Both the position numbers and the translations under genes were made by a program. Under the pieces are notes generated by a model. It was not told the DNA's origin. It worked only from the letters and a program-made list of their open reading frames with translations, and did not search any database. A stretch of 64,000 nt of DNA from Neelides folsomi (taxonomy: Eukaryota > Arthropoda > Collembola > Neelipleona > Neelidae): contig JAQGBZ010000072.1 of the NCBI GenBank assembly GCA_034687125.1, positions 1 to 64,000 on the forward strand. The letters are read 5' to 3'. Shown one piece after another: positions 51,538 to 58,992 of the stretch. Within the stretch, counting starts at the first letter, position 1, and every line of letters begins with the position of its first letter.

Positions 51538-54500
51538 CTACGCTTGAGCTTTTTCAGGAGGTGGAGATTGTTCTTCAATGGGAGGTTCAGATGGAGGTGA
51601 AGGAGTTGGAGGAATTCCAGCTTGTTCATTAACCCCTATTTCGAATTCATCCTGAGCTATCAATTTCTTTTTTCCAAATGGTGGCGGTCCTATTAAGGCT
51701 TCCACATCGTGATAATTCAAAGTTTCTCTTGATAGAAGCGCAATTGCAATCTAAAATCATTTATTCGATGAATCAATTTTCGATGTAATTTTTATGTATT
51801 TAATAATCTATGTAGTATTAAATTTAATTTATGTGAAGATTACCATTTCGAGCTTATCTCTGTGTTCGTTTATGAGTACTTCTGTTCTTTGGTAAGCTGC
51901 TCCGACTAACTTATTAACTTCTGCATCCATCATCCATGATAATTTTTTACTGAATGGCTTTTTACGCCCGGGTATCAATTCATCGTCATTGAAAGCAATG
52001 AGTCCAATATTTTTATTCATTCCGTAAGTTCTTATTTGGGCGTAAGCAATTTTAGTAACTTTTTCCAAATCGTTCTGGGCTCCAGTCGTGACTCTGTTGA
52101 ATGTTATTGCTTCTGCAACTCTTCCTCCAAGAGCCATGCACATTCTCTCAAAAAGCTAAAGATAAAAATATTAAAACATTGAACGGATACACGTAAAATG
52201 ATTACCTAAAAAATCAGATTCGTTTGTAAAAAAGTTATATTGAATATTCATTTTTACCTCTTCCTTGTTATAAAGTTTTTGATCTGAAGGTAAATAAGCT
52301 GCAAATCCTAGTGCGCGATTCGTTCTTGGAACAATTGTCACTTTTAAAAGTGCATCAGTTGTCTCGAGCATCCATCCAACAAGTGCATGACCTGACTCAT
52401 GATATGCGACTATTTTTCTTTCTTCAGGAGACATGACCTAAACATAAAATTGGGTTTAAATTAAATAATGGAAAAATTAAACAATGCATTGTAAATTCAT
52501 ATACTCTAATATTATGGTTTTTGCATTTTATACGTTTGATCCTTTATTCTTTTCCGTTCCACCAACAATTCTTTCAATGGCATATTCGAGGTCAGGTCCT
52601 CCAACGCTCTTTTGATTTAATCGTGCTGCGTGTAACGCTGCTTCATTGCATACATTTGCAATATCAGCACCTGCAAATTAAATTGAAATTTAAACTTAAG
52701 GGTTGAAAACTTGAAATATGAGAAACTTGAAATAAATATTTATTACCACTAAATCCAGGAGTAAGTGCTGACAGTCTTTTGCTAAATTTCGAAGGAGGAT
52801 TATCCAATTTAATTCCTTTTAAGTGTTGTTCAAATATCTCTCTTCTTTCAATGAGAGTTGGAAGATCAATATATATATGTCGGTCAAATCTTCCAGGTCG
52901 CAAAAGAGCCTATCAAAATTATTTAATAAAATGTTAAATATAACTTATTTATTTATTTTTAAATAGTTCCCTTATTGTGGTTAATAAATACATAGAATAC
53001 AGATATACCTTATCAAGAACTTCCGCTCGGTTCGTAGATGCAAGCATGAGAACACCTTCTTTTGTCGCCATTCCATCCATTTCGACGAGTAATTGATTAA
53101 GAGTTTGCTCTCCTTCTCTAGCACCCCCATCGGCTTGAGTTCCTCCCGTTCGTTGTTTTCCGATTGCATCAATTTCATCAATGTAAATTATACAAGGAGC
53201 TCTTTTCTTTGCTTCCTTAAAAAGATCTCTGAGACAAATAAAAACGTTGAAAAATTAGTTTCCGATTTGATTGACATATATTTTATGTATTACCTGACTC
53301 TTGCAGCACCTAATCCTCCAATCATTTCAATAAATTCGGAACCGTTCATTGAAAGAAATGGAACATTTGCTTCAGTTGCAATTGCCTTTGCCAACATTGT
53401 TTTTCCACATCCAGGTGGACCTAAAAGAACTGCGCCTCGTGGTACCTTTAAGATTTTGTTTTTGTTTATTTAGGCTTATTAGAATAATAGTAATAATTTG
53501 GCATTTTTAACAATACTTTTGCTCCAAGGCTTCTATAAAATTCGGGTCTTTTTAAGTAGTCCACAAATTCCATTATTTCAATTTTCGCCTCTTTGAGTCC
53601 AGCAACATCGGCAAATTTAACTCCTTTTCCAGGTGAAGTTGGATCGACTAGAGTAAATTTGGCTCTGCCCATTTGCATCTGTAAATAAAGGTTTAAAATA
53701 TTTATGTAAGATAATTATTGTATTATTGAAATTCATTTAAATGCCAGTTTCTTACAAAATTGTCTAAATTAAGAGGATTTTTAAAAGTCCGATTTCTTGA
53801 TAGAATGGCGAGTAGAAGTGCACCAAGAACGATGAAGGCAAGAAGCTTTCCTGCAGTATCTGAATTTCTTTCGTAAATTACAGGAACTCTATTTTCCGGA
53901 CGGATTCCAAGATGCTCTTCGGCATTTCTTAATTTCATTTCAAATTTACCCATGTCTACAATATTCATATGGTACGTCCTGTGATCCACCTAAAAAGTAT
54001 TAACCGGTATAATATTGATTATTACCTCATTTAATGTGTTTGAAAATTTATTAATAATTCTCATATTTTTCAAACCCTTTTCGCTTTAACGACTGCATCT
54101 TCGTGGAGAATAATAGTTACAATATTCGCGTCAGTTCTCACTATGATCTCTTCAACTTCACCTTTGGCTAACATGTGATAAAGAAACTCATTCCAAGACA
54201 CATAACGAACAATCTAAAAAAGAAAATCAACGATTTAACTTTTAATTTTAATGGCAATGATATATTTTTATATTTATGACCCAATATTATGAAATTATGA
54301 ATATTATGAAATTAAATTATGAAAAACCTCTTGTTGATTTGATCCAGGAAATAAAAGAGACACAAGTCCAATGAACATGTAAGCTGTGATCATCCAGAGG
54401 ATAGCTTTGACAAATAATGATGACATTTTATCTTCCTCTTCTTTCCTTTTTTTGTCGTCATTTTCCTTTTGCTCTTTATCATTTCGATTTTCATTGAAGA

Positions 54501-54901
54501 CAGAAGTGCTCGTATGAAAATTCTTGTTGAGATTATTTTCAAGTTCAATTCCACTTCTTAGCAAAAATTTTCCCTTGTGAGACAACTAGAAAAACAAAAA
54601 TACAATTTTTAACTTTAACGACTTTTAACACTTAGATTATTTTAATAATTTAATCTAAGTAATTATAATGTGTGTAATTTACCTGTGAAATTGGACATGA
54701 AAGTATTGAAAGGTGCTGACTGGGAATAAATGAAAATCGCCTTCTAAATGTATCATGAAAGTTACGATTAAAATTGCGTGTGTGAGATTTTTGAAGAACT
54801 TCATTAGCGGCTGCAACAACTCGAGTCAAAGTTGAAACGTCTTTAACGACTGAAGTAAAAGGTCTACTGCCATTTAAAGCTCTTAAAGTTGAGAGCGACA
54901 T
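51538..54901 (-). CDS. SPG7: Paraplegin, mitochondrial m-AAA protease subunit, 795 aa
   Basis: Twelve exons join in phase: 54901-54683, 54585-54328, 54213-54076, 53989-53756, 53678-53517, 53445-53294, 53228-53009, 52909-52747, 52670-52534, 52437-52258, 52155-51844 and 51750-51538. The total of 795 residues equals human paraplegin. In order: an Arg-rich mitochondrial leader, membrane span 1 (about 131-152), an intermembrane domain, span 2 (about 253-269), and an AAA module with Walker A GPPGCGKT (346-353) and Walker B IIYIDE (401-406). The M41 zinc protease site HESGH falls at 574-578, the same numbering as the human catalytic Glu575. The C-terminal [15 protein letters not shown] favours SPG7 over AFG3L2. 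The enzyme degrades and processes inner-membrane proteins in the matrix. A Pro-rich tail ends the protein. Two donors are unusual (GTTTTT, GTTTGA). The gene is head-to-head with the ANKRD11-like gene. Confidence 0.96.
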
Positions 54902-58800: not shown

Positions 58801-58992
58801 TATTTTTTCCAGGAATCAATGCTTCTTCGACATCATAATGAAGCTGAATCCCTTCATGCCGTTCAGAAAATGGACTGGGAATGGAAATTGAAAGAATTGG
58901 GTCTTTGTGAGCCGAAATCGAATCCTCCGATTGATGAGATACACGTTCCAATGGTTCACGTCTCAGATGACTTTGATCTTATCCCTACTTAA
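55840..58992 (+). CDS. ANKRD11: ANKRD11/ANKRD12 C-terminal-domain protein without ankyrin repeats, 938 aa
   Basis: Four coding exons: 55840-58011, 58142-58486, 58580-58699 and 58813-58992. The first ~715 residues are low-complexity: Ser/Thr/Pro-rich, with poly-Ser, poly-Ala (8), poly-Asn (11, an AAT run) and basic NLS-like clusters (KRKKIRRDKE, RKRKLKPNK). From FEMYLNIRR onward the protein follows the conserved C-terminus of ANKRD11/12. Markers are PPQGFKDYLMNRGNYVLA, LQHLVEKEKLVLSVEQEILR, HGRAARALSNQALPFS, FLSWLQDVDDKWDKIK and, at the end, VSDDFDLIPT. Human ANKRD11 (about 2,660 aa) is a chromatin co-regulator with N-terminal ankyrin repeats. None can be encoded between this start and SPG7, so this gene either lost them or they are elsewhere. 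The ATG has an in-frame TAA directly before it. A nuclear role is inferred from the homologs. Confidence 0.93.

Follow-up and report, generated by a model that had tools for sequence, protein, structure and literature searches.

A divergent SPG7 and ANKRD11/12-type gene pair beside twisted gastrulation, probably a retained ancestral linkage

In the 64,000-nucleotide stretch of contig JAQGBZ010000072.1 analyzed here (positions 1 to 64,000 of the forward strand, "the window"), the gene for paraplegin (SPG7) and a gene of ANKRD11/12 type are oriented divergently, on the minus and plus strands, respectively. We consider it probable that this pair is a retained ancestral linkage, within a three-gene block of twisted gastrulation (TSG), SPG7, and ANKRD11/12. 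The same neighbors recur in distant animals: the window pair matches the human and chicken gene order described in papers, and TSG matches the human neighbor of ANKRD12. Identities, order, and orientation were determined in the window, the human and chicken neighbors were taken from publications, and from the two together we infer common ancestry and reciprocal loss. The elements of the pair are:

51538–54901, minus strand: SPG7 (paraplegin) gene, encoding an m-AAA protease subunit; 12 coding exons, 795 amino acids (aa), HESGH zinc motif.
54902–55839, no strand: divergent spacer between the start codons, candidate promoter region for both genes; 938 bp, 30% GC.
55840–58992, plus strand: ANKRD11/12 C-terminal-domain gene without ankyrin repeats; 4 exons, 938 aa (splice model).
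55840–58011, 58142–58486, 58580–58699, and 58813–58992, plus strand: exons of the ANKRD11/12-type gene (splice model).
57979–58992, plus strand: conserved C-terminal domain of the ANKRD11/12-type gene (end of exon 1 plus exons 2–4).

The SPG7 gene is complete in our splice model, with 12 exons running from 54901 down to 51538 and joined into a single uninterrupted reading frame; all 11 donors carry GT and all 11 acceptors carry AG. Pfam matches in the product comprised FtsH_ext (1.7e-08), AAA (7.7e-42), the AAA lid, and Peptidase_M41 (7.7e-64), so that FtsH_ext, AAA, and Peptidase M41 domains, plus the HExxH motif read in the translation as HESGH, all fall within one protein. When a 256-aa AAA segment served as query, human paraplegin (2qz4, 383.1 bits) scored above AFG3L2 (6nyy, 316.8 bits). 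With the full-length product, AFG3L2 was the top match (529.2 bits) among the best 60 PDB matches listed, which include only one paraplegin chain, covering the AAA domain alone. On these predicted features the minus-strand gene is an SPG7 ortholog.

The ANKRD11/12-type gene begins with ATGATG at 55840, immediately preceded by an in-frame TAA (55837–55839), and GC content rises from 0.18 in 55780–55839 to 0.42 in 55840–55899, in agreement with a coding exon beginning at 55840. Most of the predicted protein is rich in Ser, Thr, Pro, and Lys, and its likeness to ANKRD11/12 is restricted to the C-terminal domain. Aligned with the human ANKRD11 C-terminus, the last ∼230 aa were identical in 126 of 230 columns, for a score of 652 (maximum of 200 shuffles, −17), with the reservation that the human query sequence misfits some published residue numbers, hence is near-correct and not exact. 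Five disease positions are described in the human domain (S2475, R2512, E2522, R2523, and L2605; PMC13385800); read tentatively, the alignment has R2512 and E2522 unchanged, conservative changes at R2523 and L2605, and a different residue at S2475. This domain of human ANKRD11 is reported to bind TBLR1/NCoR-HDAC3 (PMC13385800, PMC11304329) and to co-precipitate HDAC3 (PMC11304329), a 292-aa C-terminal fragment being sufficient for binding of the NCoR complex (PMC13385800). The plus-strand gene is thus predicted to retain the end that matches the NCoR/HDAC3-binding part of human ANKRD11, without the ankyrin part. Against PDB, the domain gave a single chance-level match (E 0.048), and structure prediction for exon 2 alone was poor (mean predicted local distance difference test score 38.5). 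No relatives of the domain were found in viral contigs (15 and 74 pattern matches) or in prokaryotic genome contigs (37 pattern matches). A run of (AAT)n near 57670–57703 in exon 1 encodes poly-Asn.

The head-to-head arrangement of paraplegin and an ANKRD11/12-type gene proposed in the initial annotation was borne out by the splice models, Pfam, and the alignment, and its outer coordinates, 51538 and 58992, proved to be those of the two stop codons. Its distance of 0.5–0.9 kb between 5′ ends needs slight revision, as the gap measured between start codons, not transcription starts, is 938 bp, 38 bp above the upper bound. The family label held for the C-terminal domain and failed for the ankyrin repeats, which were absent both from Pfam results and from 1430 open reading frames (ORFs).

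Ankyrin repeats were sought in several ways. In the 938-aa product Pfam found no ankyrin; all it reported there was FRG, a weak match (E 0.021) that fell short of the cut-off. An ankyrin consensus compared with the 1430 window ORFs (both strands, minimum 25 codons) gave a best E of 1.9, under conditions in which control fragments down to 28 aa were recovered at 4e-8. A human ankyrin stretch used as query matched zero window ORFs at E up to 5, and a crude ankyrin motif score over the sequence gave nothing. Because no repeats were found, we class the predicted plus-strand gene as an ankyrin-less ANKRD11/12 C-terminal-domain gene and not as a standard ANKRD11. It is very improbable that ankyrin exons far upstream were missed, which would place SPG7 and TSG inside an intron and make the head-to-head arrangement only apparent. 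Acceptor-like sites do occur inside exon 1, before 56954 (score 8.2) and before 56048 (5.1), and the 25-codon minimum placed shorter exons between stops outside the search; on the other side stand the lack of ankyrin-like ORFs of the searched length in the window, despite the success of the 28-aa control, and the in-frame stop before ATGATG with its rise in GC.

The absence of repeats also bears on orthology. In human, ANKRD12 and ANKRD11 are described as resembling each other most in two parts, the C-terminal domain and the ankyrin region at the N-terminus (PMC3689078). In fly, the homolog CG10984 reportedly has no obvious activation domain, while the three other domains are present and the middle region is shorter (PMC11304329). 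The window gene, which lacks the ankyrin repeats that the fly gene has, could be a side copy of the C-terminal domain and not the ANKRD11/12 ortholog, with the ankyrin-bearing gene elsewhere. We regard this as unlikely, given that SPG7 and TSG are the human neighbors of ANKRD11 and ANKRD12, as the original locus would predict; the side-copy explanation would in any case overlap with an old linkage.

The third member of the proposed block and the ORF beside it are:

48765–49809, minus strand: twisted gastrulation (TSG/TWSG1) gene; Pfam Tsg 3e-45 and Tsg_N 4e-21, obtained on a crude join of the gene's ORFs; edges partly checked.
50445–50876, plus strand: unassigned 143-codon ORF separating TSG from SPG7; no Pfam match.

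TSG is the next gene of a recognized family beyond SPG7. For the human pair, ANKRD11 and SPG7 are described as having opposite orientation and an intergenic region in common (PMC11855469), and the literature on the human locus upholds the initial annotation's statement that they are adjacent and head-to-head at 16q24.3. The ANKRD11 promoter lies in a CpG island (PMC9180463), and from a probe distance in the same source we derived an end of the ANKRD11 5′ untranslated region (UTR) near hg19 position 89,556,968. On chicken chromosome 11, ANKRD11 (18,857,696–18,939,049) and SPG7 (18,946,166–18,976,689) have annotated ends 7.1 kb apart; the source passage lists no intervening gene and carries no strands (PMC6339939). 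A tight shared promoter in vertebrates does not follow from the human and chicken sources. The canonical human ANKRD11 and SPG7 starts are about 17.8 kb apart.

The other human paralog has the other neighbor. ANKRD12 is described as a paralog of ANKRD11 (PMC13385800), and papers on 18p deletions give the row NDUFV2, ANKRD12, TWSG1, RALBP1, in what appears to be map order (PMC8104293, PMC11445036, PMC11272337), with the row confined to OMIM genes in PMC8104293 and to RefSeq protein-coding genes in PMC11445036 and PMC11272337; NDUFV2, ANKRD12, and TWSG1 are listed likewise in PMC7001972. The longest 18p list also holds PIEZO2, CHMP1B, TUBB6, AFG3L2, SPIRE1, MC5R, and MC2R (PMC11272337). For TWSG1, an expression variant located in the ANKRD12 region has been reported (PMC6823490), which is a hint only. 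With human TWSG1 listed beside ANKRD12, the presence of TSG near SPG7 in the window offers independent support for ancestral linkage. The band of human TWSG1 is 18p11.22. Partners of the genes in the longest 18p list, namely PIEZO1, CHMP1A, TUBB3, AFG3L1P, SPIRE2, and MC1R, lie on 16q24.3, which would make 16q24.3 and 18p11 duplicates. Under the reading we prefer, an unduplicated ancestral block TSG–SPG7–ANKRD11/12 would have passed through the vertebrate genome duplications, after which one copy would have kept SPG7 by ANKRD11 (16q24.3) and the other TWSG1 by ANKRD12 (18p11.22).

Chance adjacency, in which SPG7 and ANKRD11/12 met independently in the host lineage and in vertebrates, we find scarcely credible. 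With 13,000–19,000 genes, a range rounded from salmon-louse annotations of 13,081 and 19,181 (PMC9157166) and used as a stand-in for the host, SPG7 would lie immediately 5′ of ANKRD in divergent orientation with a probability of 2.6e-5 (19,000 genes) to 3.8e-5 (13,000 genes). Among human divergent pairs, 12 are reported as fully conserved in fly, and another 176 fall in a class "both orthologs" (PMC2670823), which we took to mean that both genes are present in fly and not so paired, for a total of 188. Chance would be expected to keep just 0.005–0.007 pairs in fly out of the 188, vs. the 12 counted; against such a background, divergent pairs that are conserved have almost always been retained. 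TSG as a further neighbor multiplies the improbability, the chance of another human ANKRD11/12 neighbor among three nearby genes being about 5e-4 to 7e-4. On the side of chance are the 176 of 188 pairs not kept in fly and the finding that old blocks in vertebrates are no more numerous than shuffled genomes give: the vertebrate ancestor is reported to have inherited 70 old microsyntenic blocks vs. 110, 120, and 124 in shuffled genomes (PMC8851819). Because the inherited blocks are fewer than the shuffled ones, under a definition looser than strict adjacency, agreement with vertebrates is weak evidence, and on account of these counts we lowered our confidence in ancestral linkage by a very small step.

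Both sets of counts, like the inexact human query, weigh against an ancestral linkage, and further points do so as well. The human order, in which TWSG1 follows ANKRD12 without SPG7, requires a minimum of one rearrangement plus one loss. The TSG neighbor test was chosen after looking, and the 143-codon ORF intervenes between TSG and SPG7. A literature search found no paper stating a 16q24/18p11 duplication. The annotated gap is 7.1 kb in chicken vs. 938 bp in the window, the spacer gave no promoter motif enrichment (below), and a second, ankyrin-bearing ANKRD gene may exist elsewhere in the genome. We nevertheless judge ancestral linkage to be well favored. The initial annotation had suggested that the pair may predate the protostome–deuterostome split; its ancestry part agrees with the human and chicken order and with TSG, and its dating holds only if the host is a protostome.

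As to why the pair stayed together, we tentatively propose promoter constraint in the short spacer. The spacer would carry the start regions of both genes, so that a break there would harm the promoter of one gene or of both. Each gene is broadly needed, SPG7 for a subunit of a mitochondrial protease and ANKRD11/12 for a cofactor of HDAC3/NCoR; a shared function would not be required. Human deletions that take the ANKRD11–SPG7 intergenic region or the ANKRD11 promoter lead to less ANKRD11 transcript and to KBG syndrome (PMC11855469, PMC9180463). A literature search found no paper combining ANKRD11, SPG7, and "bidirectional promoter," and no title on this pair or trio among the papers listed.

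The spacer itself was examined for 16 promoter motifs on both strands against a background of 300 dinucleotide-Markov sequences, and none was enriched at the 5% level; TATA-like motifs numbered 6 vs. 2.25 expected (fraction 0.07) and CCAAT 0 vs. 2.95. Repeats in the spacer were few and weak (one short direct repeat and three weak inverted pairs), and neither the Rfam nor the tRNA scan matched anything in the window. An acceptor-like site before 55826 scored 6.7, within the 4.6–13.5 of the 14 accepted sites, and a 5′ UTR intron may end at 55825. The 938-bp spacer is a candidate promoter region for both genes. Pairs with a shared promoter are those whose transcription starts, on opposite strands, are under 1 kb apart; in the window, the 938 bp is the distance between start codons. 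The shared promoter suggested in the initial annotation is plausible, but neither the motif census nor the wide gap in chicken gives it direct support. The spacer also contains one ORF:

55410–55559, plus strand: ORF of 49 aa that has a membrane-like segment and carries a terminal GTAAGT; codon log-odds −9.7.

We rejected this ORF as a third gene, its hypothetical spliced extension having no Pfam match and its codon log-odds being negative, a weak score in that the training set was small, partly unverified, and included the ORFs at 11528–11959 and 14380–15024. Those two had been considered as hemocyanin and were discarded as such, Pfam giving no family for the first and a MATH domain for the second.

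Ancestral linkage may equally have needed no regulatory reason: breakpoints rarely part close genes, and the block may merely have survived, a possibility to which we give somewhat less than an even chance. The wide variation in annotated spacing between the window and chicken, the lack of enrichment among the motifs tried, and the unrelated roles of the two proteins all favor such passive survival, whereas fully conserved divergent pairs are reported to exceed control pairs in insects and human (PMC2670823), and coexpression is reported to be higher in gene-dense conserved blocks than in random blocks (PMC8851819). Passive survival of a tight cluster thus appears about as likely as regulatory constraint. 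The fullest version of our proposal remains rather doubtful as a whole: a pre-vertebrate TSG–SPG7–ANKRD11/12 block would have been kept by an old bidirectional promoter, the vertebrate ANKRD copies would have kept different neighbors, and the host ANKRD would have lost its ankyrin part while keeping the NCoR/HDAC3-binding end at the old promoter.

If the ANKRD11–SPG7 intergenic region does belong to a pre-vertebrate block, invertebrate copies such as the 938-bp one here would be small natural versions in which to locate essential regulatory elements. The trio would offer a simple test of how old neighbors were divided between the copies once the vertebrate duplications had taken place. To judge from the ankyrin-less gene, the NCoR/HDAC3-binding end may, in some animals, function in a protein that lacks the ankyrin part.

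Elsewhere in the window, exons of an M17 leucine aminopeptidase (60252–61884, minus strand; Peptidase_M17 1.1e-16, with a second ORF below the cut-off) lie apparently tail to tail with the ANKRD11/12-type gene. Calponin-homology-like exons, parvin-like by eye, occupy 46238–47077 on the plus strand (CH 0.0017 and 3.6e-05, both below the curated cut-off). A Tc1/mariner-type transposase ORF with 294 codons open (DDE_3 1.2e-13) is found at 9447–10328 on the plus strand, and the ORF with the MATH domain (1.8e-09) at 14380–15024 is on the minus strand.

Among known systems, the closest is human ANKRD11–SPG7 at 16q24.3, which has the same two families, a common intergenic region, and opposite orientation, as in the window. 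The vertebrate pair differs in its wider gap (that of chicken being given above) and in that human TWSG1 is not reported at 16q24.3; human ANKRD11 also includes a long middle region and ankyrin repeats (PMC11304329), the latter absent from the window gene. At human 18p11.22, an ANKRD11/12 gene adjoins twisted gastrulation, as in the window block, but there SPG7 does not lie between them and TWSG1 comes after ANKRD12. Deep microsynteny is a known phenomenon, to which TSG–SPG7–ANKRD11/12 would add a further case: in the conserved divergently paired genes of PMC2670823 and the animal microsyntenic blocks of PMC8851819, as is proposed here, unrelated neighbors are reported to have been kept for a very long time.

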